64,000 nt of DNA, from NCBI GenBank assembly GCA_030068145.1, contig JAPJBO010000428.1, positions 62,001 to 126,000 on the forward strand. The letters are read 5' to 3'. The notes under the pieces are model-generated. The model was not told where the DNA came from and did not search any database. It saw only the letters and a program-made list of their open reading frames with translations. Below, piece by piece: positions 10,471 to 62,034 of this stretch. The DNA is from Diplonema papillatum. Lineage: Eukaryota; Euglenozoa; Diplonemea; Diplonemida; Diplonemidae. Position 1 is the stretch's first letter. The number at the start of each line of letters is the position of its first letter. The translations under genes and the position numbers were made by a program.

Positions 10471-10589
10471 ACACACACCTGTTCTTTTTTCCTATTAATC
10501 CTTTCCGCAGAACTTCAAAAGGAAAACCTCCAAAGAGCTCGTACCTAAAAATGCAGTTCTTGAGAAGAACCTTTGCCTACATGACGGGC

Positions 10590-11114
10590 ATGTCAGGTGC
10601 GTCGTCCAGCAGCACACCGACGGCGCAGAAGCGGTCGCAGAGCAATCTAGAGCTTCCTCTATGGAATAAAGTGTACTCTGCGCACCGCCTGAGCATTCTG
10701 GCGTACATGCCGAAGGAGACCACTGCTATCGACCCGCACACGGGTCTGAAGAACAGCGTCATGGCATGGAGGAACGGCGAACGTATCGACTTGGGCCTGC
10801 ACGTCGCGGAAGAAGAGGCCAACATCGGAAAGGTGCCAGCAGAGCATGATTGCTACAGCACCTTGGAGCCGACTGAGTTCGACCCGATTAAAGTCGTCTG
10901 TTTCGGGGACAAGAGGCCGGACGGCTTCGCGCACCGGGTGCAGTGGCTGGCGGCGCGGAGGAACAACATCCTGTACATTGCGTTCAAGGGCACGAACAAC
11001 GGCGCTGACATGCTCATCGACGCTTCCATCACCGACGTAATCGCGCCCTCGGGCGCTCGGTACCACAGCGGCTTCTACGCAGCCGTCCAACCGGAACTTG
11101 CCGATATTCTGCGG
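10590..11114 (+). CDS. lipase A, exon 1 (class 3 lipase)
   Basis: First exon (175 aa) of a three-exon class 3 (fungal/plant DAG-lipase-like) lipase of about 580 aa, predicted to hydrolyse acylglycerol esters. Exon 1 carries the N-terminal alpha/beta part, including the ILYIAFKGTNNGADMLIDAS strand-turn, which matches the usual FRGT region. The start at MSGASSSS was chosen because the paralogue at 55467 begins with the same MSG and converges at LELPLWNKVYS. In-frame upstream codons (10581 and the poly-Gln region) leave the N-terminus open. No signal peptide is visible at this start. The donor CGG|GTATGA is phase 0 and at the same site as in lipase B. Confidence 0.85.
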
Positions 11115-11254: not shown

Positions 11255-11870
11255 GAAGCATTGAAGTTGTGGTGTTCTGCTCGTTCTCGAGGGGAATCTT
11301 GTTACTCTGTGGTACTCTGCGTACCTAGCAATCTGTTTACCTAGCGCTCTGGCCAGTAATTGGCTCTGACATGCGTCAACTGAAAACGTCGAAACCTTGC
11401 GAACCGTCAGGTGCGCAATGTGATCTTGATGGACAAGGCAAACTTCGTCGAAATATGGGGTGTTCTGCTGCTTCTCGAGGGGAATCTTGGTACTCTGCGT
11501 ACCTAGCAGTCTGTTTACCTAGCGCTCTGGCCAGTAATTGGCATTCTCTGACATGCGTCAACTGAAAACGTCGAAACCTTGCGAACCGTCAGGTGTGATG
11601 GACAAGGCAAACTTCGTCGAAGATGGGGTGTCTTCTGCTGATTCTCTGGGGGAATCTTGGTACTCTGCGTACCTAGCAGTCTGTTTACCTAGCGCTCTGG
11701 CCAGTAATTGGCATTCTCTGACATGCGTCAACTGAAAGCGTCGAAACCTTGCGAACCGTCAGGTGCGCAACGTGATCTTGATGGACAAGGCAAACTTCGT
11801 CGAAATATGGGGTGTTCTGCTGCTTCTCGAGGGGAATCTTGTTACTCTGCGTACCTAGCACTCTGGCCAG
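11255..11870 (+). repeat. intron 1 array of decayed exon-2 acceptor copies
   Basis: A 170-182-bp unit repeated about four times. Each unit carries CGAACCGTCAG followed by GTGCGCAATGTGATCTTGAT and GGACAAGGCAAACTTCGTCG. This matches the true exon 2 acceptor (CCCTCAG|GTGTGCAACGTGATC) and its first roughly 80 coding bases, with substitutions. The copies lie at about 11411, 11591 and 11762, with a remnant near 11262 and an isolated acceptor-like piece at 12242. None preserves the GHSLGG codons intact. Confidence 0.8.
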
Positions 11871-11915: not shown

Positions 11916-12187
11916 ACCGCTCCGGGTCCAGGAGCGTGACGGTCAACCACAGCTTGCAAGGCTTGAGTCGGAGGCAGCACAGTGCCACAACCCCGTCCGC
12001 TCTGCCCTGTGGCTGACCGTCTCGACGAGCTTGTGTTCAGCGCGAGCACCAAGCCCCAAGGTGCGTCACGCCTTTGATGCTTTAGTTTGGGAAATCGGTA
12101 GCCACTTGACCCGTAGGCCCGTGGCTCTGCAGTACCGCCGAACACGTGAAGCTTGGTCTCCCGTGTAGCAGGCTTTCCCTGGTACCC
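11916..12187 (+). repeat. 270-bp dispersed repeat, copy 1 (inside lipase A intron 1)
   Basis: Starts near GACCGCTCCGGGTCCAGGAG and ends CTTTCCCTGGTACC. Near-identical copies lie at 22706-22977 and 55165-55403, with a diverged inverted copy at about 61640-61865. SINE-sized, but I could not identify Pol III boxes with confidence. Confidence 0.85.
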
Positions 12188-12313
12188 AGTAAATGAAAAA
12201 AATAGTCGTTCCCTGAAACGTCGAAACCTTGAGAAACCGTCAGGTGCGCAGTATATGGCATTTTCTGACACGCGTAACCTGAAAACGTCGAAACCTTGCA
12301 AACCCCCCGAAAC

Positions 12314-12565
12314 GAGCAATCTGTTTCATCCACAACCAGCAATCTGTTTCATCCATAACCAGCAATCTGTTTCATCCACAACCAGCAATCTGTTTCATCC
12401 ATAACCAGCAATCTGTTCATCCATAACCAGCAATCTGTTTCATCCATAACCAGCAATCTGTTTCATCCATAACCAGCAATCTGTTTCATCCATAACTAGC
12501 AATCTGTTTCATCCATAACCAGCAATCTGGTTCATCCATAACCAGCATTCTGTTCGCCCCGCAAC
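12314..12565 (+). repeat. 23-bp minisatellite in lipase A intron 1
   Basis: About 12 units of CCAGCAATCTGTTTCATCCA plus TAA. The same satellite occupies the same intron of lipase B (56155-56490), so it predates the gene duplication or was copied with it. Confidence 0.9.
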
Positions 12566-12664
12566 CGGCATTCTGTTCACCTAGAGCTCTGCATAATTAG
12601 TCGCATCCTGACATGCGAAAAACTGTAAAAAGTCGAAGCTTTCCTTTTCATCTCCTTCCCTCAG

Positions 12665-13161
12665 GTGTGCAACGTGATCTTGATGGACGACGCGAACTGC
12701 GTCGAAGACGTGGTTTTCTGCGGCCACTCGCTCGGCGGCGCCTACGCGACGGTGGCGGCGCTGGAGCTGGCGGCAAGCCCGTTCTGGAAGGCGGAAAAGA
12801 GGCCCGAAGCCGTCACGTTCGGCGCGCCGCTGGTGGTCACGCAGTCGGCCAACGGCCACGCCAACGTCCCGAGCGCGCTGCTCGGCTGCATGCCGCGTAT
12901 GACGCACTTCGTCGCGAACTACGACATCGTGCCCCGCATGCTCGCCCTCAAGCCAGACTCCGTCTTGAAAATGGCGAAAGCGGTGCCAGACGCCATCCTA
13001 CAAGACAGCGGGTACCTCAAGACTTGGTCCGTCGGCGTCTTCATCAAGATGACCAGCCCCATCGACAAGATCGAAGGCATGATCCAGCAGGCGCAAGTCC
13101 TTCGCGAGCAGTACGTCGCCGTCGGAACCTACGTCTTCGCCATCACATCGGACAACGGCAG
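12665..13161 (+). CDS. lipase A, exon 2 (nucleophile elbow)
   Basis: Contains the class 3 lipase signature VVFCGHSLGGAYAT with nucleophile Ser197, the FGAPLV strand, and NYDIVPRM with the likely catalytic Asp262. Acceptor CCCTCAG|GTGTGC is phase 0; donor CGGCAG|GTCTGC leaves phase 2. The first roughly 290 bases and the preceding 88 intron bases are almost identical to lipase B, while the middle of the exon is clearly diverged, suggesting local gene conversion. Confidence 0.9.
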
Positions 13162-15008
13162 GTCTGCATTTGTGCACAATTTGCATCCATTTTCCCGAAC
13201 ATGTCAGCCAAAAACGTTTTCGAGCGTCGGGAACGTAATCGAGTTTAGTAGTTTGGGTGGGAATGTAAATAATCTGTGGCGATAATCTGCATCGGGCGAG
13301 TATCTGATCCGCAAGTCTTTGGGCGACCACAGGTTGGCGGACTCGTACTGGCCTGCCGTGAGGCTGTGCACGTTGAACCCGACGCCTGACCCGGATGACG
13401 GGGACAGACGCCAGTGGGATGACATCCGTGACCACAAGCACACGTACTGTCACTACCGCAGATACGATACGCACATTAATACACGATACCTTAAAAATGG
13501 TGTGATCTACAGTAGAAAACCTAACACTTCGCACGAACTAAGAACTTCCCGTGTACCTTTCTACACCCCAAGTAGGGTAAAATGACGATTTTCGGCGATT
13601 TTTTGCATTAGTACTTCCCGCACCCCCATGCAACCCCGCAGGCAAGCGCACGTGCAAGTGGTGCCGCCGATGAAGTTCTCGTTTGCGAGCAGGAACATGG
13701 ATGCGGGTTAGCTGCTCGCTCTTTACCCGCACGACTTCGACCACAAGGACGACGCCGAGTATCTGATCCGCAAGTCTTTGGGCGACCACAGGTTGGCGGA
13801 CTCGTACTGGCCTGCCGTGAGGCTGTGCACGTTGAACCCGACGCCTGACCCGGATGACGGGGACAGACGCCAGTGGGATGACATCCGTGACCACAAGCAC
13901 ACGTACTGCCACTACCGCAGATACGATACGCACATTAGTACACGATACCTTAAAAATGGTGTGATCCACAGTAGAAGACCTAACACTTCGCACGAACTAA
14001 GAACTTGCCGTGTACCTTTCTACACCCCAAGTAGGGTAAAATGACGATTTTCGGCGATTTTTTGCATTAGTACTTCCCGCACCCCCACGCAACCCCGCAG
14101 GCAAGCGCACGTGCAAGTGGTGCCGCCGATGAAGTTCTCGTTTACGAGCAGGAACATGGATGCGGGTTAGCTGCTCGCTCTTTACCCGCACGACTTCGAC
14201 CACAAGGACGACGCCGAGTATCTGATCCGCAAGTCTTTGGGCGACCACAGGTTGGCGGACTCGTACTGGCCTGCCGTGAGGCTGTGCACGTTGAACCCGA
14301 CGCCTGACCCGGATGACGGGGACAGACGCCAGTGGGATGACATCCGTGACCACAAGCACACGTACTGCCACTACCGCAGATACGATACGCACATTAGTAC
14401 ACGATACCTTAAAAATGGTGTGATCCACAGTAGAAAACCTAACACTTCGCACGAACTAAGAACTTGCCGTGTACCTTTATACACCCCAAGTAGGGTAAAA
14501 TGACGATTTTCGGCGATTTTTTGCATTGGTACTTCCCGCACCCCCATGCAACCCCGCAGGCAAGCGCACGTGCAAGTGGTGCCGCCGATGAAGTTCTCGT
14601 TCACGAGCAGGAACATGGATGCGGATTAGCTGCTTGCTTTTTACCCGCACGACTTCGACCACAAGGACGACGCCGAGTATCTGATCCGCAAGTCTTTGGG
14701 CGACCACAGGTTGGCGGACTCGTACTGGCCTGCCGTGAGGCTGTGCACGTTGAACCCGACGCCTGACCCGGATGACGGGGACAGACGCCAGTGGGATGAC
14801 ATCCGTGACCACAAGCACACGTACTGCCACTACCGCAGATACGATACGCACATTAATACACGATACCTTAAAAATGGTGTGATCCACAGTAGAAGACCTA
14901 ACACTTCGCATGAACTAAGAACTTCCCGTGTACCTTTATACAGGTAAAATGACGATTTTCGGCGATTTTTTGCATTAGTACTTCCCGCACCCCCACGCAA
15001 CCCCGCAG

Positions 15009-15392
15009 GCAAGCGCACGTGCAAGTGGTGCCGCCGATGAAGTTCTCGTTCACGAGTAGGAACATGGACGCGGACGAGCTGCTTGCTTTTTACCCGCACG
15101 ACTTCGACCACAAGGACGACGCCGAGTATCTGATCCGCAAGTCTTTGGGCGACCACAGGTTGGCGGACTCGTACTGGCCTGCCGTGAGGCTGTGCACGTT
15201 GAACCCGACGCCTGACCCGGATGACGGGGACAGACGCCAGTGGGATGACATCCGTGACCACAAGCACACGTACTGCCACTACCGCAGATACGATACGCAC
15301 ATTAGTACACGATACCTTAAAAATGGTGTGATCCACAGTAGAAGACCTAACACTTCGCACGAACTAAGAACTTCCCGTGTACCTTTATACAG
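15009..15392 (+). other. candidate cassette exon D of lipase A
   Basis: 384 nt between CCCCGCAG and the donor-like ATACAG|GTAAAATG, fully open in the frame set by exon 2 (phase 2 in, phase 2 out). It would add 128 residues: the exon 3 module with SLGDHRLADSYWPAV plus a roughly 40-residue tail of repeat origin. If the donor is not used, translation stops at the TAA inside GGTAAAA, giving an alternative C-terminus. Splicing is inferred from sequence only. Confidence 0.5.
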
Positions 15393-15457
15393 GTAAAATG
15401 ACGATTTTCGGCGATTTTTTGCATTAGTACTTCCCGCACCCCCACGCAACCCCGCAG

Positions 15458-15841
15458 GCAAGCGCACGTGCAAGTGGTGCCGCCGATGAAGTTCTCGTTC
15501 ACGAGTAGGAACATGGACGCGGACGAGCTGCTTGCTTTTTACCCGCACGACTTCGACCACAAGGACGACGCCGAGTATCTGATCCGCAAGTCTTTGGGCG
15601 ACCACAGGTTGGCGGACTCGTACTGGCCTGCCGTGAGGCTGTGCACGTTGAACCCGACGCCTGACCCGGATGACGGGGACAGACGCCAGTGGGATGACAT
15701 CCGTGACCACAAGCACACGTACTGCCACTACCGCAGATACGATACGCACATTAGTACACGATACCTTAAAAATGGTGTGATCCACAGTAGAAGACCTAAC
15801 ACTTCGCACGAACTAAGAACTTCCCGTGTACCTTTATACAG
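15458..15841 (+). other. candidate cassette exon E of lipase A
   Basis: Same structure and length (384 nt, phase 2-2) as the unit at 15009 and almost identical to it. The 65-nt spacers (15393-15457 and 15842-15906) begin GTAAAATGACG and end CAACCCCGCAG, so they could act as short GT-AG introns. Confidence 0.5.
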
Positions 15842-15906
15842 GTAAAATGACGATTTTCGGCGATTTTTTGCATTAGTACTTCCCGCACCCCCACGCAACC
15901 CCGCAG

Positions 15907-16627
15907 GCAAGCGCACGTGCAAGTGGTGCCGCCGATGAAGTTCTCGTTCACGAGTAGGAACATGGACGCGGACGAGCTGCTTGCTTTTTACCCGCACGAC
16001 TTCGACCACAAGGACGACGCCGAGTATCTGATCCGCCGGTCTTTGGGCGACCACAAGTTGGCGGACTCGTACTGGCCTGCCGTGAGGCTGTGCACGTTCA
16101 GCCCGACGCCTGACCCGGATGACGGGGACAGACGCCAGTGGGATGACATCCGCGACCAAATCGACGCGCTAAAGAGCAGGGCGGACGAAGGCAGCGACAT
16201 AACGGAGAAGGAGCTGTGGGCTGCGTACACGCCGAGCTTCTTGTACTCGCACGCGCTTCCCCCTCATATGCTGTCGGAGACGCTGAGCGGCGAAGCGAAG
16301 GAGCTCACGCAGAAGGTGCGGGCTGACGCGCTGCGGCTGGCGGCCGCGCTGACCGAAAAACGGCGGGAAGTGCTCGGTCTGAACGACAAGACGCACGTCG
16401 ACTTCCTGGGCGGCTACAGCGAGATGAACACCGACGTGCGCCCGCCGCCGCCGCACGTGGAGGAGGAGCCGAAGTCGAAGAAGAGGTTCAGCTTGATCCC
16501 TTGGAGGAACTGGTCCAGGGGCGACGAGCTCGACAAGTCGCAGCACGTGCTGAGCCCGGTGATCTCCGAGCTCGAAACCATGCACAAGACCAACGGGTAC
16601 CCGCTGTTCGTGGTCACCGACAACTAG
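15907..16627 (+). CDS. lipase A, exon 3 (C-terminal region)
   Basis: Terminal exon, starting in phase 2 after AACCCCGCAG and ending at TAG 16625-16627, completing a protein of about 580 aa. SLGDHKLADSYWPAV holds the best candidate for the catalytic histidine (His390), by analogy with the His of the Ser-Asp-His triad near the end of class 3 lipase domains. After it comes a charged C-terminal region, ending in an acidic/basic linker (EEEPKSKKRFSL) and LDKSQHVLSPV. It is colinear with lipase B exon 3. Confidence 0.9.
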
Positions 16628-17403
16628 AACACGATGTCCCTCTGTTTTCACACAGCAACAACAACAATACGACGCATTTCTTTTACATAAGCGCCCAGCT
16701 GTTGGAAAGAAATGCTCGACAACAGCTGCAAGACAAAGAACCGTATCCCAAGTGCTGTAACTACCGAACCACGTGTTGAACGGACGATGAGGTTCATGCG
16801 GGTCCCTACACACGCCGAGCTTCTTGTATTCGCACGCCGCGCTTCCCCTCAGATGCTGTCGGAGACTAGAACATGATGTGTCCCCCTGTTTTCACACAAC
16901 AACAGCAACAACAATACGACGCATTTCTTTTACGTAAAGCACCAGCTGTTGGAAAGAAGTGCTCGACAACAGCTGCAAGACAAAGAACCGTATCCAAAGT
17001 GCTGTAGCTACCGAACCACGTGTTGAACGGACGATGAGGTTCACGCGGGTCCCTACAAACGCCGAGCTTCCCCCTCATATGCTGTCGGAGATGCTGAGCG
17101 GCGAAGCGAAGGAGCTCGCGCAGAAGGTGCGGGCTGACGCGCTGCGGCTGGCGGCCGCGCTGACCGAAAAAAAGGCGAGAAGTGCTCGGTCTGGACGACA
17201 ACGCGCACGTCGACTTCCTGGGCGACTACAGCGAGATGAACACCGACGTGCGCCCGCCGACGCCGCACGCGGAGGAGGAGCCGAAGTCGAAGAAGAGGTT
17301 CAGCCTGATCCCTTGGAGGAACTGGTCCAGGGGCGACGAGCTCGACAAGTTGCAGCACGTGCTGAGCCCGGTGATCTCCAAGCTCGAAACGATGCACATC
17401 TGA
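16628..17403 (+). pseudogene. tandem partial duplication of lipase A 3' end
   Basis: The 3' flank (ACACGATG.., AACAACAATACGACGCATTT, ACCGAACCACGTGTTGAACG) is repeated at 16627-16800 and 16865-17050. Each copy is followed by a fragment of exon 3: a short one at about 16810-16866 and a long one at 17060-17400. The long fragment has a frameshift at GACCGAAAAAAAGGCG and ends at an early TGA after KLETMHI. It is non-functional as a lipase but shows that the duplication process also reached the gene's 3' end. Confidence 0.85.
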
Positions 17404-17584
17404 CCACGTTGTGGGAACGTTGTTGGTGCACAGTGCCTGGCGTGCGTTGTTGCCCCCCAGGATCTTCTTTCGGAAGTGGGGGTCGGGACTTCGGGCTGCG
17501 GGCTGGCTTTGCAGCTGATGAAAACGTACTGGGGCGGGCCAGATGCAGCAATCTCCGCCCGCTCTTACTCTTTTTTTGTGTTAA

Positions 17585-17690
17585 CAATGCATTGTTGGTA
17601 CTAAAAATTAGTAGTTGGCAGCGTACTAAAAGCAACTCACCAAATCAAGTGAAAAGCCGCTAGTGCGCACAAACAAACGGAAGCGCCATA
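17585..17690 (+). repeat. dispersed repeat (TTAGTAGTTGGCAG family)
   Basis: Matches 59312-59430, 62246-62345 and, inverted, 8260-8345. Shared core: GTACTAAAAATTAGTAGTTG and GTGCGCACAAACAAA. Confidence 0.8.
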
Positions 17691-17897
17691 CTAATTCTTT
17701 CGGTGAAGCTAACTTCAGAAGCTTTACCAGCTTCGGCTGACACCATTTGCGCACTAAACCATGGATAAGAAGACGACTGAAAGCATAGACACAAAGATAG
17801 CTCAAAGCATCTGCAGAATAACACGAAAAGCCTCTAGGCAAAAACCCGTCTTCACATTTCTTTCTCGATAAGATTCCAGCCTCCCAATCAAAAGGAT

Positions 17898-18440
17898 TTG
17901 GATTTTGAGGCCTACACGCGATCCAAGCTGCCTGGTGAAACGTTTGCCGAAAAAGGGTTGCAGATAGGATATCTAACACGAGCCATCAACGACCTAAGCT
18001 TTGCTGACACGGGGGCCTCAGCCTTCCCCGGGAAGTGGCGTCAGGGTGTATGCTCTTTACGCTGCCTGGGTGCGCCGGCAATGCCGGGATTCACACACCG
18101 TCCACGTTTTGCAGCTGGACGGAGGACAGAGGCGATGTTGAACGGCATAGTAGCAGTTTGCTCCAAAGACAGCTGGAATGACGCCAAACCCGTGTACCCT
18201 CAGGACGTAGCCTTCGCTCAATGGAAGCTGAAGTTTCCCATCAAGGTGTTAGCCGCCGCCGTAGGCCGCGCAGTCGCGAGAAAGAAGAGGGCCCGCAGCG
18301 TTACAAGGCGGCGATCCCCTGCGAGACGAGCTCGCCCGCCGGCCAGAGCGCCCGCTGCAGCACCAACTCCGGTGCCGCCACTCACTGTAGCAGAGCCGCA
18401 ACCTGCAGCGCGCCTCCGGAGCGACTTACGCCCGCCGTAG
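17898..18440 (+). other. open frame ending in an RP-rich tail, possible transposon remnant
   Basis: A 180-codon open frame of unknown function. Its C-terminal part (RRARPPARAPAAAPTP... RLRSDLRPP, stop) has a counterpart at 41936-42060 (KRARPPARSAPVVSTPTP... RLRRNDLRPP). In both places the block is followed by the repeat ending in GAGATGGTCCCTGCACTC, which suggests the last codons and 3' UTR of a retroelement ORF. The upstream residues are not recognised, and the frame could be partly fortuitous. Confidence 0.3.
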
Positions 18441-33719: not shown

Positions 33720-34600
33720 GCACCTATCGTGGTATTGTGGTATGCTGGTGGTATCCACAGCACCTATACCATAACCTCGTAGCTAGCAGGGATGCTGGCA
33801 TGTATACCATACTCGTGGGTGTGTACACACAACCCACCATCCACTAGCAGCTAGTGTGGTTTCGTGGTATGTGGTGGTACCATATTCGTCGGTGTGTGTA
33901 TCGTGGTATATACTCGCGGGTGTGTACACACAACCCACCATCCACTAGCAGCTAGTGCGGTTTCGTGGTATGTGGTGGTACCATATTTGTGGGTGTGTGT
34001 ATCGTGGTATATACTTGTGGGTGTGTACACACAACCCACCATCCACTAGCAGCTAGTGCGGTATCGTGGTGTGCTGTTGGGATCCACTACACCATACTCG
34101 TGGGTGTGTACACACAACCCAACATCCAGTAGCAGCTAGTGTGGTATCGTGGTATGTGGTGGTACCATATTCGTCGGTGTGTGTATCGTGGTATATACTC
34201 GCGGGTGTGTACACACAACCCACCATCCACTAGCAGCTAGTGCGGTATCGTGGTGTGCTGTTGGGATCCACTACACCATACTCGTGGGTGTGTACACACA
34301 ACCCAACATCCAGTAGCAGCTAGTGTGGTATCGTGGTATGTGGTGGTACCATATTCGTCGGTGTGTGTATCGTGGTATATACTCGCGGGTGTGTACACAC
34401 AACCCACCATCCACTAGCAGCTAGTGCGGTATCGTGGTATGCTGTTGGTATCCACTACACCATACTCGTGGATGTGTACACACAACCCAACATCCAGTAG
34501 CAGCTAGTGTAGTGTGTATCGTGGTATATACTCGTGGGTGTGTACACACAGCCCACCATCCACTAACAGCTAGTGTGGTATCGTGGTATGCTGTTGGTAT
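33720..34600. repeat. 83-bp satellite, orientation 1
   Basis: About 10 units combining ACACAACCCACCATCCACTA, GCAGCTAGTG.GGTATCGTGG and a GGTATCCACTACACCATACT or GGTACCATATTCGTCGGTGT part; two unit types alternate. The same satellite in opposite orientation is at 50690-51295. Confidence 0.9.
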
Positions 34601-39069: not shown

Positions 39070-39977
39070 GGGACGAGATACCTTGCATCATCCTCCGTTT
39101 ACGAACCGGGTCTGCTCAGACATTATCGAGAGACGAGGAGTACCTTGCACCATTATAAAGAGACTATAGAGAGACGAGAACTTTGCATCAGGCACATTAT
39201 AGAGAGACGAGGCACCTTGCACCACCCTCAGCGCTTACGAACGAGGTCTGCTCGGATACACTGGAAGAGACGAGTATCTTGCATCACCCTCAGCGTTTAC
39301 GAATTTACTAACGAGTCCGCTCAGATACATTATAGAGACACGAACACCTTGCATCATCACTCCGTTTACGAACCGGGTCTGCTCTGACACATTTATAGAG
39401 AGACGAGGCATCTTGCATCACCCCCAGCGCTTACGAACGACGTCTGCTCAGATACATTATAGAGACGATGGAGAGACGAGTATCTTGCATCACCCTCAGC
39501 GTTTACGAATTTACTAACGAGTCCGCTCAGATACATTATAGAGACACGAACACCTTGCATCATCACTCCGTTTACGAACCGGGTCTGCTCCGACACATTT
39601 ATAAAGAGACGAGGCATCTTGCATCACCCCCAGCGCTTACGAACGACGTCTGCTCAGATAGAGACGATGGAGAGACGAGTATCTTGCATCACCCTCAGCG
39701 TTTACGAATTTACTAACGAGTCCGCTCAGATACATCATAGAGACACGAACACCTTGCATCATCACTCCGTTTACGAACCGGGTCTGCTCCGACACATTTA
39801 TAAAGAGACGAGGCATCTTGCATCACCCCCAGCGCTTACGAACGAGGTCTGCTCAGATACATTATAGAGAGACGAGTTCCTTGCATCACCCTCAGCATTT
39901 ACGAATTTACGAACGAGGTCTGCTCAGATACATTATAGAGAGACGATAGAGAGACGAGTATCTTGCATCACCCTCAG
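39070..39977 (+). repeat. intron 2 array of acceptor-containing units
   Basis: About 15 units of 60-70 bp with the theme CTTGCATCACCCTCAGCGTT, ACGAACGAGGTCTGCTCAGA and TACATTATAGAGAGACGAG; three units form a higher-order period near 200 bp. The last unit's CTTGCATCACCCTCAG is the acceptor of exon 3, and the following unit bases (CGCTTACGAACGACGTC) resemble the exon start (GGCCTACGTACGTCG). Confidence 0.9.
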
Positions 39978-40957
39978 GGCCTACGTACGTCGATGTGAAG
40001 ACCGGACACATGAGCAACGCGAAGACTAACGGCGAGGTTTCCATCGTCCTGTTCGGCTCAGGGTCCGATGCCGCAGGTGACGCGGTCATGGACTCGCCCG
40101 ACACAGGCGACATCACGACCGTGGTGGTATTATCGAAGGTGGCGCCCGAAACCGTCGAAAGAGCGAGCATCAGCCTGTTGAGCGGGAACGACTGGTACGC
40201 TGAGTATCTTATGATCGGGGACAGAATCGCGGTGTTCGACCGCTGGGTCGAGTCGGACTCCTCAGTGTTTTTCGCTGACTTCACCAAGAGTAAGAGATAC
40301 AGCGTCATGGTGAAGACCGGCACGCTGACCAGCGCCGGTACCGACTCGAACATCTGGCTGACCGTCGTCGGCTCGCTGGGGGAGACCCGCGCTGTTTTAC
40401 TCAACCCGCGGCTGTCGGGAAACGCCTTCGAGAACGGCGACACGGACACGCTCGATTTCGACGGCCGCGACGTCGGAACCATCTCAAGCCTGAAGGTGAA
40501 GAGTGACGGCGCGTTTGCCGGGTCGGATTGGGACCTGGACTACGTCGAAGTCAACAGCCAGCGCGCCTGCTTCCGCAGGTGGATCGAGGAGGGCACGTAC
40601 ACGCAGGCCGTGCTCGGAAGTTGCGATTGGAAGGTGTACAGCGTCGTCGTGAAGACTGGCACGCGAAGTGGCGCCGGCACGGACTCGAACATCTGGCTGA
40701 CCGTCATCGGCGACCGGAGCGAGACCAACGCCGTCAAACTCAACCCGCTGCTGTCGGGAGACGCCTTCGAAAACGGCGACACGGATCGTCTCACGTTCAG
40801 CAACCGCGACGTCGGCAACATCGTGAGCGTAAAGGTGCAGAGCGACGGCATGTACGCCGGGTCCGATTGGGACCTGAGCTACATCACAGTCAACAGCAAG
40901 ACCGCCATCTTCAACACGTGGATCGAGGAGGGCACGTACACGCGAACCGTGCAGTAG
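39978..40957 (+). CDS. astacin-PLAT protease, exon 3 (PLAT domains)
   Basis: Encodes three consecutive PLAT/LH2-type beta-sandwich domains. The first is divergent (YVDVKTGHMSNAK...FDRWV). The second has YSVMVKTGTLTSAGTDSNIW...FENGDTD...SDWDLDYV. The third has YSVVVKTGTRSGAGTDSNIW...FENGDTD...SDWDLSYI. Such domains usually bind lipid or protein partners, so they may localise the protease to a surface. Acceptor CACCCTCAG|GGCCTA in phase 1, stop TAG at 40955-40957. The second and third domains are about 60-70% identical, a further internal duplication. Confidence 0.9.
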
Positions 40958-44335: not shown

Positions 44336-44578
44336 CCGTCCAACGCTTTCCTGGACCCAATGGGCGGGTGTAAACGAACGGGCAAAAAAGAAATTGAATC
44401 ATGATCAGCCTCCCTCGCAGCTCCGCCATCGCTCCGCTTTGGCAACCGCAGAACCATCGCAGTAGATCAGCAGCTATTGTAAGCAAACTAGTACAAACAA
44501 CTCAATGAACGCCGTCACAGCCAACTGACTGCAGCGAATATAGCCGGAAACACAAACAGGCAACAAAGACACACGTAC

Positions 44579-44645
44579 AAGCACACGTACTGCCACTACA
44601 GCAGATACGATCCGCGCACTAACATACTATACCTTAAAGAAACCT
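44579..44645 (+). repeat. dispersed copy of the lipase A cassette tail
   Basis: ACAAGCACACGTACTGCCAC, then TACAGCAGATACGATCCGCG and TATACCTTAAAGAAA, corresponding to the non-lipase tail of the 449/459-bp units at 13.3-15.9 kb. Confidence 0.8.
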
Positions 44646-50689: not shown

Positions 50690-51295
50690 CCCTGTCACAC
50701 TAGCTGCTAGTGGATGGTGAGTTGTGTGTACACACCCACGAGTATGGTATAGTGGATACCAACAGCATACCACGATACCACACTAGCTGCTAGTGGATGG
50801 TGGGTTGTGTGTACACACCCACGAGTATGGTATAGTGGATATCAACAGCATACCACGATACCACACTAGCTGCTAGTGGATGGTGGGTTGTGTGTACACA
50901 CCCACGAGTATGGTATAGTGGATACCAACAGCATACCACGATACCACACTAGCTGCTAGTGGATGGTGGGTTGTGTGTACACACCCACGAGTATGGTATA
51001 GTGGATACCAACAGCATACCACGATACCACACTAGCTGCTAGTGGATGGTGGGTTGTGTGTACACACCCACGAGTATGGTATAGTGGATACCAACAGCAT
51101 ACCACGATACCACACTAGCTGCTAGTGGATGGTGGGTTGTGTGTACACACCCACGAGTATGGTATAGTGGATACCAACAGCATACCACGATACCACACTA
51201 GCTGCTAGTGGATGGTGGGTTGTGTGTACACACCCGAGTATGGTGTAGTGGATACCACCACGTACCACGATACAAACACCCACGAATATGGTACC
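50690..51295. repeat. 83-bp satellite, orientation 2
   Basis: Seven near-identical units of TAGCTGCTAGTGGATGGTGG, GTTGTGTGTACACACCCACG, AGTATGGTATAGTGGATACC and AACAGCATACCACGATACCA. Reverse orientation of the array at 33720-34600 and more homogeneous. Confidence 0.92.
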
Positions 51296-55466: not shown

Positions 55467-55982
55467 ATGTCAGGTACGGCCACTAGTGCACCGACGGAGG
55501 GTAAGAACCTCAACCTGGAGCTTCCTCTATGGAACAAGGTGTACTCTGCGCACCGTCTGAGCATTCTGGCGTACATGCCGAAGGAGACCACTGCTATCGA
55601 CCCGCACACGGGTCTGAAGAACAGCATCATGGCATGGAGGAACGGCGAACGTATCGACTTGGGCCTGCACGTCGCGGAAGAAGAGGCCAACATCGGAAAG
55701 GTGCCAGCAGAGCATGATTGCTACAGCACCTTGGAGCCGACTGAGTTCGACCCGATTAAAGTCGTCTGTTTCGGGGACAAGAGGCCGGATGGCTTCGTGC
55801 ACCGGGTGCAGTGGCTGGCGGCGCGGAGGAACAACATCTTGTACATTGCGTTCAAGGGTACTAACAATGCTGCTGACATGCTCATCGACGCTTCAATCAC
55901 CGACGTAATCGCGCCCTCGGGCGCTCGGTACCACAGCGGCTTCTACTCAGCCGTCCAACCGGAACTTGTCGGTATCCTGCGG
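55467..55982 (+). CDS. lipase B, exon 1 (class 3 lipase)
   Basis: First exon (172 aa) of a 576-aa class 3 lipase, the paralogue of lipase A. Start MSGTATSAPTEGKNLNLELP; the next convincing upstream in-frame start is absent and the preceding sequence is a dispersed repeat plus an A-rich leader. It is more than 90% identical to lipase A exon 1 from LELPLWNKVYS onward, including AFKGTNNAADMLIDAS. The donor CTGCGG|GTATGG is at the same position and phase. No signal peptide is visible. All three exons join in frame (516+497+718 nt), and the coding sequence has no defects, so this is the better candidate for an ordinary functional copy. Confidence 0.9.
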
Positions 55983-56154
55983 GTATGGATAGCTTACAAC
56001 TGGATGCGAAGATCAATCAATTAGTTCGTTAACCAAGAGCTTCAAGCGAACCTTAGACCTTTTCAAGTTTTTAGTCGAGGTACCCTAAAGACACCGCTTT
56101 CAAAGCTCTGCGTCATTCTATTCGAAGCATCAAGGGTGTGCTGTTCTGCTGGGC

Positions 56155-56490
56155 TAGCAATCTGTTCGCCCCGTCCATAACCGGCAATCTGGTTCATCCA
56201 TAACCAGCAATCTGTTTCATCCATAACCAGCAATCGGTTTCATCCACAACCAGCAATCTGTTTCATCCGTAACCAGCAATCTGTTTCATCCATGACCAGC
56301 AATCGGTTTCATCCACAACCAGCAATCTGTTTCATCCGTAACCAGCAATCTGTTCATCCATAACCAGCAATCTGTTTCATCCGTAACCAGCAATCTGTTC
56401 ATCTATAACCAGCAATCTGTGTCATCCATAACCAGCAATCGGTTTCATCCATAACCAGCAATCTGTTTCATCCATAACCAGCAATCTGGT
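56155..56490 (+). repeat. 23-bp minisatellite in lipase B intron 1
   Basis: About 15 units of CCAGCAATCTGTTTCATCCA plus TAA, with CGG and CCGT variants; homologous to 12314-12565. Confidence 0.92.
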
Positions 56491-56583
56491 TCTTTTCACC
56501 TAGAGCTCTGCATAATTAGTCGCATCCTGACATGCGAAAAACTGTAAAAAGTCGAAGCTTTCCTTTTCATCTCCTTCCCTCAG

Positions 56584-57080
56584 GTGTGCAACGTGATCTT
56601 GATGGACGACGCGAACTGCGTCGAAGACGTGGTTTTCTGCGGCCACTCGCTCGGCGGCGCCTACGCGACGGTGGCGGCGCTGGAGCTGGCGGCAAGCCCG
56701 TTCTGGAAGGCGGAAAAGAGGCCCGAAGCCGTCACGTTCGGCGCGCCGCTGGTGGTCACGCAGTCGGCCAACGGGCACGCCAACGTCCCGAGCGCGCTGC
56801 TCGGCTGCATGCCGCGTATGACGCACTTCGTCGCGAACTACGACATCGTGCCCCGCATGCTTGCCCTCAAGCAGGACTCCGTCTTGAAAATGGCACTAGC
56901 GGTGCCCAGCACCATCCTCCAGAACAGCGGGTACCTCAAGACTTGGTCCGTCGGCGTTTTCCTGAAGATGACCAGTCCCCTGGATAAAGTGGGAGGCGTC
57001 ATTCAGCAGGCGCAAGTCCTTCGCGAGCAGTACGTCGCCGTCGGAACCTACGTCTTCGCCATCACAACGGACAACGGCAG
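56584..57080 (+). CDS. lipase B, exon 2 (nucleophile elbow)
   Basis: VVFCGHSLGGAYAT with Ser194 and NYDIVPRM with the candidate Asp. Acceptor CCCTCAG|GTGTGC (phase 0), donor CGGCAG|GTTTGC (phase 2). The 5' half is nearly identical to lipase A; the segment around 56880-56995 (LAVPSTILQNSG, FLKMTSPLDKVGG) is diverged; the end is identical again. Confidence 0.92.
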
Positions 57081-57722
57081 GTTTGCCGGCAGCTTTTGTA
57101 GCGTTTTCAACCACTTGAGGGCGAACTACCGCTGTGGTGGTAATTCATTCAAGAAAGTTCGCGGGTGTCAAGTTCGCGGGCGAGAGACCAAGGAATGGTC
57201 AAAAGTGGTCGCCGTTTGTTTTGTTGGAAAGATCTGTCACAAATCTTTGACGTGCGTCCTTTCTCGGGCAGAAGTCATAAACCCTGCCCCGTCCTTATGT
57301 GGTTAACGTAAATATCAATCTTGCGGGTTGTCCTTCAACGTATTTTGCAGGCTAAAAGACGCAGACACAGCGTGTTTTGGCGATCGATCAGAATTTCTTT
57401 CCGTGAAAATGACGCGGGGAGAATACAAGTGGGAAAACGATCATCCGGCACGTACAAATAAAACGAGCGCCTGTCTGTTTGAGCACATTCTTGGGCACAC
57501 TTGCTTACATGGTGGTATACTGTGAACACATGCACATGTAGAACTGTAAAGGCGTTGCCCACATGCATACCACGTACCGTATAGCAGCGCTGCTGTGCAC
57601 TAGAGGATGATGAGCTCGTGCTGTGCATCATAGTACTCGTGGTGGTTATCAGGGACTCTTCCAGTGTCCTGACCACCTCAACCAGTAGCTTGCAGACGGC
57701 AATGCATTCAAACACAACGCAG
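57081..57722 (+). other. lipase B intron 2, no cassette array
   Basis: 642-bp GT-AG intron. It contains the repeat shared with 36515-36600 and a CTAAAAGACG-family repeat at 57325-57465. Unlike lipase A, it has no exon-derived units; the region before the acceptor is unique. Confidence 0.85.
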
Positions 57723-58440
57723 GCAAGCACACGTCCAAGTGGTAACGCCGATGAAGCATTCATTCACGAGCCACAATACCGACGCGAGCGAGTTGCTCGC
57801 CTTTTACCCGGAATTCGACCACAAGGATGACCCGGCGTATTTGATCCGCCGGTCTTTGGGCGACCACAAGTTGGGAGACTCGTACTGGCCTGCCGTGAGG
57901 CTGTGCACGTTCAGCCCGACGCCTGACCCGGATGACGGGGACAGACGCCAGTGGGATGACATCCGCGACCAAGTCGGGGCGCTGAAGAGCAAGGCTGACA
58001 AAGGCAGCGACATAACGGAGAAGGAGCTGTGGGCTGCGTACACGCCGAGCTTCTTGTACTCGCACGCGCTTCCCCCTCATATGCTGTCGGAGACGCTGAG
58101 CGGCGAAGCGAAGGAGCTTCTGCAGAAGGTGCGGGCTGACGCGCTCCGGCTGGCGGTCGCGCTGACCGAAAAACGGCGGGAAGTGCTCGGTCTGAACGAC
58201 AAGACGCACGTCGACTTCCTGGGCGATTACACCGCAATGAACACCGACGTGCGCCCGCCGCCGCCGCACAAGGAGGAGGAGCCGAAGTCGAAGAAGAGGT
58301 TCAGCCTCGTGTTTTGGAAGAAGTCGTCTGGAAGCAGCGAACTCGACAAGTCGCAGCACGTGCTGAGCCCAGTAGTCGCCGAGCTCGAAAACATGCACAC
58401 GAACAACGGGTACCCGCTGTTCGTCATCAGCGACAACTAA
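57723..58440 (+). CDS. lipase B, exon 3 (C-terminal region)
   Basis: Begins in phase 2 after AACACAACGCAG. RRSLGDHKLGDSYWPAV holds the candidate catalytic His. It continues colinear with lipase A through HALPPHMLSETLSGEA and EEEPKSKKRFSL, and ends TAA at 58438-58440. It differs from lipase A mainly in the basic linker (VFWKKSSGSSE). Confidence 0.92.
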
Positions 58441-61865: not shown

Positions 61866-62034
61866 TTAAACGTAAGCGACTGCTGCGCGGGAATAACAGG
61901 AGGACACTTCGGTAATTGAGCGAGCTCAAGATGCCGTTCCTTCACGCGAGAACCGCATGCATTTTTCGACTCAGGGGACCCATCACCAGCTCGCGGGTCT
62001 GTCGAGCTGCAACCGGTTGGCTCTTTTTTGTTGT

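Follow-up and report, generated by a model that had tools for sequence, protein, structure and literature searches.

A tandem array of repeat-tailed exon 3 heads in intron 2 of a class 3 lipase gene of Diplonema papillatum

The lipase genes and the intron 2 array

Diplonema papillatum belongs to a group described as marine eukaryotes in the title of its genome paper (PMC10161547). The window analysed here, that is, the whole stretch of DNA under study, comprises 64,000 nt of contig JAPJBO010000428.1 (186,242 bp), positions 62,001–126,000 of the forward strand. It contains two paralogous genes, lipase A and lipase B, with the following features (window positions; a slash marks the splice position in donors).

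10581–11114, + strand: lipase A exon 1 (coding part, deposited model; the deposited protein P0001 is reproduced exactly)
11310–11865, + strand: older, decayed array of about three units in intron 1 of lipase A
12665–13161, + strand: lipase A exon 2, with the GHSLGG nucleophile region and the donor CAG/GTCTGC
13297–13641, + strand: unit u0, 5'-truncated (exon part 13297–13434, tail to 13576, spacer to 13641)
13642–14100, + strand: unit u1, with an in-frame TAG in the exon 3 head, then an undeleted tail and a spacer
14101–14559, + strand: unit u2, like u1 (TAG, undeleted tail, spacer)
14560–15008, + strand: unit u3, in-frame TAG and 10-bp deletion
15009–15457, + strand: unit u4, open (exon 15009–15269 in the deposited model, 15009–15392 in the preliminary description)
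15458–15906, + strand: unit u5, identical to u4 (exon 15458–15718 in the deposited model, 15458–15841 in the preliminary description)
15907–16627, + strand: true exon 3 of lipase A, including the stop codon
16652–17398, + strand: extra copies of the 3' part of exon 3 and its 3' flank, downstream of lipase A
55467–58440, + strand: paralog lipase B, without an intron 2 array (exons 55467–55982, 56584–57080 and 57723 onward; protein P0002)

Both genes are predicted to encode class 3 lipases, as P0001 and P0002 matched Pfam Lipase_3 (PF01764) with 55.7 and 56.5 bits, respectively, above the curated cut-off of 22. P0002 (hypothetical protein DIPPA_02639) corresponds to lipase B with 100% identity and 100% coverage. 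A protein search with lipase B, in which the best 8000 candidates from a database clustered at 90% identity were scored, returned nine proteins, none of them a version of lipase A with zero extra modules. Eight of the nine were aligned, and S194 in GHSLGG, D259 and the pair D385-H386 (P0002 numbering) were invariant in 8/8; these would include the presumed residues of the Ser-Asp-His triad of the Lipase_3 family. The Asp-His pair sits in the GDHKL...SYW segment of the homologues, and the units keep GDHRLADSYW; given the invariance of this pair, the proposal that each unit carries the catalytic-His module is plausible. The PDB lipase and EDS1 matches of lipase B do not place the His because all of them end by residue 274 of 576. 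A literature search found no paper linking Diplonema with EDS1.

The dN/dS ratio between lipase A and lipase B was approximately 0.32 in exon 1, 0.32 in exon 2 and 0.40 in exon 3, with weaker constraint after nt 250 of exon 3 (approximately 0.64). Among the 39 residue differences between the two proteins, counted after dropping alignment columns with fewer than four outgroup residues, the outgroups showed the A residue alone seven times and the B residue alone nine times, so that A is not clearly more decayed than B. Apart from a few letters at the acceptor, intron 2 of lipase B showed no match to that of lipase A, and a search for structured RNA in 12000–18000 gave 0 Rfam matches at the gathering score.

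In lipase A, a partial unit and five full ones are arranged in tandem within intron 2, ahead of true exon 3. Tandem Repeats Finder gave, for this intron, 13297–16158 with a period of 449, 6.3 copies and 98% matches, and the start-to-start spacings were 459, 459, 449, 449 and 449 for one repeat family, and a second family that overlaps it gave 459, 459, 459, 449 and 449. Each full unit consists of the intron end, a 3' splice site, nt 1–252 of exon 3 and a tail. The acceptors of the full units are at 13642, 14101, 14560, 15009 and 15458, and true exon 3 has its own at 15907; a single C/T position is all that distinguishes the five full units and exon 3 from one another within the 25 nt preceding the acceptor. 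Exon 3 is a terminal exon without a native donor, and 252 of its 721 nt are copied into the units. The tandem array is real and not a product of chance, because the five full units differ at just 0–12 of 449 positions, leaving the 10 bp aside. The repeat finder, the spacings and the acceptor positions confirmed the number of units given in the preliminary description; the partial unit, however, starts at 13297, not at 13289 as given there.

Several details that had been read from the sequence were also borne out. The three upstream full units (13642, 14101 and 14560; 3/5) have an in-frame TAG, and the 10 bp CCCCAAGTAG, which the partial unit and the full units at 13642 and 14101 retain, are missing from the units at 14560, 15009 and 15458. 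The proposed donor, CAG/GTAAAA, defines a 384-nt exon followed by a 65-nt GT...AG spacer. The units at 15009 and 15458 are free of stops and in phase, which makes both of them, with lengths that are multiples of three, potential in-frame cassettes; in agreement with the proposed phase 2-2, the translation that includes the unit at 15458 stays open up to the true stop. If the donor were left unspliced, GGTAAAA would be read as LYR followed by TAA, as had been described.

The array of intron 1 is built from units that comprise the end of intron 1, an acceptor and up to approximately 70 nt of the exon 2 head, with 80–82% identity to that head. It is of the same design as the intron 2 array, and older.

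Repeat-derived tails and the order of changes among units

The tail had been described as foreign. It does lie beyond the exon copy, but it is made of pieces of two dispersed repeat families, here X and Y, and is not anonymous DNA. The exon 3 copy stops at approximately nt 252, and the tail opens with a piece of X of ~61 nt. In unit u4 the pieces are as follows.

15261–15321, + strand (limits approximate): piece of dispersed repeat X, containing the deposited donor CAC/GTACTG
15322–15436, + strand (limits approximate): piece of the MITE-like Y, 3'-truncated, containing the donor CAG/GTAAAA

The search for X yielded 54 matches, 46 of them outside the lipase genes; 45 of these 46 touch X, the sequence of 20 stretches among them was examined, and 25 copies were compared; the copy number of X is a lower bound because 40 of 1085 first-look candidates were scored. 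For Y, scoring 40 of 140 candidates gave 35 matches outside the array, and the best 14 of the 35 were examined. A matching inverted end of the ATGGTGTGATCC type (up to three mismatches in 14 letters) was present at 167–224 bp in eight of these 14 copies, and six were without it; because of these inverted ends we call Y a putative MITE-like element. The Y piece of lipase A breaks off 21 nt short of exon 3, and the whole spacer except for these 21 nt belongs to Y. At the junction of exon 3 and X, approximately two letters (CA) are common to both sequences. In a further locus, L009 (G000:C185), Y is inserted in X after CCTTAA, the same site as in lipase A; this locus and lipase A may share one X:Y composite, or Y may have a strong target preference. 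By eye, TAA flanks Y on both sides in L009. Another copy of X, 87% identical to the unit tail, lies at 44577–44638 of the window.

The dispersed copies of Y give the direction of the 10-bp change. With an undeleted unit as the query, which somewhat favours undeleted copies, the gap was found in 0/14 distinct Y copies that span its position (L024 and L048, being the same place, were counted once), several of which have substitutions there, and the Y copy of L009 is also without it. Because none of these copies has the gap, the 10-bp loss in units 3–5 is derived, as had been stated. The converse, a 10-bp insertion in units 0–2, is ruled out by the same copies. At the position of the TAG codon, units 4 and 5, true exon 3 and lipase B have GAG, and the TAG of units 1–3 is derived because lipase B and true exon 3 both have GAG.

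Along nt 1–130 of the exon part, units 4 and 5 are identical to true exon 3. Along nt 131–252, six differences from exon 3 and lipase B are common to all units, five of them nonsynonymous and one synonymous; they show no sign of coding constraint, although their number is too small for a test. Over 449 nt, u4 and u5 have no differences, u1 and u2 have five, u3 and u4 six, u1 and u4 11, and u2 and u4 12, and the series from u5 through u3 to u2 against u4 (0, 6 and 12) upholds the older-to-newer gradient that had been proposed. The accompanying idea of a stepwise conversion into usable exons fails, in contrast, since GAG is ancestral, units 1–3 have decayed, and units 4 and 5 are recent with the sequence of exon 3 at nt 1–130. 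These comparisons suggest that units 4 and 5 owe their open frames to recent copying, and that units 1–3 decayed from the GAG state. Selection for usable cassettes as the cause of the open frames of units 4 and 5 was rejected on the same two observations, the ancestral GAG and the equality with exon 3 at nt 1–130.

Candidate donors and the deposited protein

The public gene model of lipase A already contains units 4 and 5. P0001 ('Protein EDS1B', 757 aa) is, letter for letter, the translation of 10581–11114, 12665–13161, 15009–15269, 15458–15718 and 15907–16627. The inclusion of the two units thus agrees with the preliminary description, but the donor does not: the model uses CAC/GTACTG, inside X, which gives exons of 261 nt, instead of CAG/GTAAAA, inside Y, which gives 384 nt. 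With the deposited donor, the 10-bp loss would be intronic and irrelevant. The 384-nt exon, although open and in phase, is not the sole choice of this kind, as units 4 and 5 have 11 in-phase, stop-free GTs, including one at 150 nt and the one at 261 nt that the deposited model uses. In the tail of the undeleted unit u2, the deposited donor is the only in-phase GT.

According to the genome paper, the pipeline behind the deposited model used assembled transcripts, and expert inspection covered the three largest contigs only (PMC10161547); the 186-kb contig of the array is not among these. RNA-seq-informed predictions in D. papillatum are described in a separate report as often merging coding regions (PMC12817076). 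Most likely, the deposited two-module protein would be an automatic model that ends each cassette at the first GT beyond the end of the coding similarity.

The usual 5' end of U1 snRNA is AUACUUACCUG. U1 was found in the D. papillatum genome, with three of four matches above the cut-off, and its 5' end (...GTACATACCTGA) could be read in L057 and, as the reverse complement, in L058 and L060. The 5' end of these three genes (GUACAUACCUGA) is unlike the usual one and suits GTATG donors; (G)/GTATG donors have been reported for three relatives, and the D. papillatum U1 end fits them (PMC12621601). U1 duplex energies, which are a rough proxy for donor strength, were −11.8 (A) and −12.3 (B) kcal/mol for the exon 1 donors and −8.4 and −8.6 kcal/mol for the exon 2 donors. 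The CAG/GTAAAA donor gave −8.3 kcal/mol, compared with −5.1 at the same place without the 10-bp loss, so that this loss brings pairing there close to that of the exon 2 donors. Pairing at least as good was found for 8.2% of the GTs in the window, and exon 3 itself has a GT of −8.0. The deposited donor gave −4.3 kcal/mol, a value equalled or exceeded in strength by 48% of the 3986 window GTs. When the universal U1 end was used instead, the values were −8.8 for CAG/GTAAAA and −1.0 for the deposited donor.

A second change creates a candidate donor within the exon part. In all six units (13297–15906), AAG has become AGG at exon nt 150, turning CAA/GTTGGC into CAG/GTTGGC, an in-phase site with −7.8 kcal/mol in the units and −1.5 in exon 3. 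Two of the changes tested, the 10-bp loss and the nt-150 substitution, go towards usability. As a control for chance, 4125 single deletions of 1–30 nt were made in the tail; 93 of them gave an equally strong donor, 33 of which were in phase and 32 also open. A donor-making deletion is therefore uncommon by chance, but this was judged after the fact.

Possible explanations and known systems

Taken together, these observations lead us to favour, as fairly probable, the view that the array is a by-product of recombination, a variant of the repeat-bounded gene structures of this species, with at most leaky inclusion of units. The 449/459-bp unit begins within X, crosses the MITE-like Y, the last 21 nt of the intron and the 3' splice site, and ends at nt 252 of exon 3. 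The process would have started with an intronic insertion of X:Y just upstream of exon 3; a rearrangement using approximately 2 nt of shared sequence (CA) would then have joined nt 252 of exon 3 to X, and unequal exchange would have multiplied the unit and maintained the similarity of the proximal copies to exon 3; the more distant ones would have decayed by acquiring TAG or by truncation. Repeated unequal exchange with exon 3 is suggested because nt 1–130 equal exon 3 and nt 131–252 share six differences. Most transcripts would join exon 2 to true exon 3 (13161 to 15907). Occasional inclusion of one or two extra modules is possible because the 3' splice sites are near-identical and units 4 and 5 have open, in-phase frames, and the upstream acceptors could possibly be used too, bringing in a stop. 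The dispersal of X and Y through the genome, the direction of change read from lipase B and the Y copies, the older array of the same design in intron 1, the additional 3' copies behind the gene and the poor U1 pairing of the deposited donor speak for a by-product, as does the published account of repeat-bounded genes (PMC10161547). Against it, the clean skipping of the first five of six near-identical acceptors is hard to explain and needs some extra signal, a real junction may lie behind a model that drew on assembled transcripts, the CAG/GTAAAA donor of units 3–5 and the exon 2 donors pair with U1 to about the same degree, and the published example is situated upstream of a gene rather than in a late intron.

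Alternatively, units 4 and 5 may be real cassette exons, with either the 261-nt or the 384-nt donor, so that lipase A would have one to three catalytic-His modules. P0001 contains exactly 15009–15269 and 15458–15718, the two alternative lengths are multiples of three and open, the pairing energy of CAG/GTAAAA (−8.3 kcal/mol) is close to the −8.4 and −8.6 of the two exon 2 donors, and the unit-wide change at nt 150 adds a further in-phase donor (−7.8 compared with −1.5 in exon 3). We nevertheless consider this unlikely, given that the deposited and the proposed donors disagree, approximately 8% of the window GTs match the latter in U1 pairing, and the extra modules are absent from lipase B and the six other aligned homologues; moreover, in their treatment of such arrays, the genome authors warn that these mislead automatic models, and they give alternative splicing for approximately 5% of multi-exon genes (PMC10161547). 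If instead the acceptors at 13642, 14101 and 14560 were used, the units would act as poison exons, with a TAG after 22 codons per unit, and lipase A would be largely silenced at the RNA level. The near-identity of the 25 nt before the acceptors of the units and exon 3 (one C/T position) and the location of the TAG units at the front of the array would fit this, whereas the intact coding sequence of lipase A, its dN/dS values against B (~0.32, 0.32 and 0.40, ratios that can lag a recent loss of expression) and the outgroup-matched residues (7 vs. 9, with A not clearly more decayed) make it quite improbable. That the array was expanded or shuffled by misassembly is hardly credible: the identity of units 4 and 5 over 449 nt does leave the number of units uncertain, but other unit pairs differ at 5–12 positions with private and shared changes, and PacBio support is reported for another array of this genome in the worked example of the genome paper (PMC10161547).

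The recombination by-product that we favour resembles a phenomenon already described for D. papillatum, of which the array appears to be a variant, a young intronic array whose units combine a 3' splice site, an exon head and a repeat-derived tail. In our literature search on tandem and exonization arrays, the genome paper was the only one among the matches listed to name Diplonema (PMC10161547). In its account of 'repeat-bounded' genes, the worked example has a unit of approximately 400 bp, RNA-seq indicates that the array is absent from the mature mRNA, PacBio reads support the assembly, and arrays are said to give over-long models and spurious introns (PMC10161547). As in that account, part of a gene and adjacent non-coding sequence stand in tandem beside an expressed copy, in the same species, and the array interferes with automatic models (PMC10161547). 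The expressed copy in lipase A is presumably exon 3, to judge from the paralog and the homologues. The copies also diverge away from it (u5, u3, u2 and u1 differ from u4 at 0, 6, 12 and 11 of 449 positions). In contrast, the worked example lies upstream of its gene, and others in the same account repeat the end of the first exon within the first intron (PMC10161547). The lipase A array lies in intron 2 and repeats an internal 3' splice site with the head of the last exon; we file it as a variant because it is not at a gene end or beside a first exon. In addition, two of its units stay open and in phase, and the five full units are at least 97% similar, compared with 71–96% for copies 1–12 of the worked example as presented there (PMC10161547).

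Other known processes share some of these traits. Exonization of transposable elements, as outlined in two articles, is similar in that repeat-derived sequence could supply the exon end and the donor, but the repeat in lipase A forms the tail attached to an exon head that has been duplicated (PMC2911107, PMC2879366). Intron gain by tandem genomic duplication, as set out in its source, also yields new GT...AG spacers beside coding sequence; however, the lipase A spacers reproduce the final part of an intron that already existed and are not new introns within an exon (PMC4974935). The array and these processes thus overlap in part. In tandem exon duplication, a whole exon is duplicated with both of its splice sites. 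Lipase A likewise has tandem exon-bearing segments, each with its own 3' splice site, but its units carry nt 1–252 of a 721-nt terminal exon with no native donor, and hence are not whole exons with both sites. Because exon 3 has no donor of its own, any donor of a unit must be repeat-derived or internal to the exon, and the tail candidates are located in X and Y.

On paper, one or two modules could be included in frame, and an extra module would then repeat the region of the presumed catalytic His. A single gene thus illustrates how tandem duplication and repeat sequence place ready-made, in-phase potential exons in an intron, and the public gene model incorporates them into a longer protein. 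Should these modules prove to be spliced, lipase A would offer a present-day example of evolution in module number by way of intronic arrays; if they are not, the deposited 757-aa protein needs correction. D. papillatum is reported to be amenable to genetic manipulation (PMC12621601). A broader proposal, which we regard as distinctly improbable, is that D. papillatum varies the copy number of protein modules, in lipase A the catalytic-His module, by a general route in which a 3' splice site and exon head are amplified in the preceding intron, transposons supply donors, and young units are spliced in frame until they decay; were it true, the old and young arrays in successive introns of lipase A would be snapshots of the cycle.

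Some other repeats were observed in the window. A 23-bp satellite (AACCAGCAATCTGTTTCATCCAT) is present in intron 1 of lipase A (12311–12554) and of lipase B (56174–56492). Two arrays, at 33808–34510 and 50696–51273, are made of seemingly the same 83–101-bp unit in opposite orientation, as judged by eye. Finally, 39950–40957 contains an open frame with a repeated domain, of period ~339 bp, which may resemble a PLAT/LH2 repeat.
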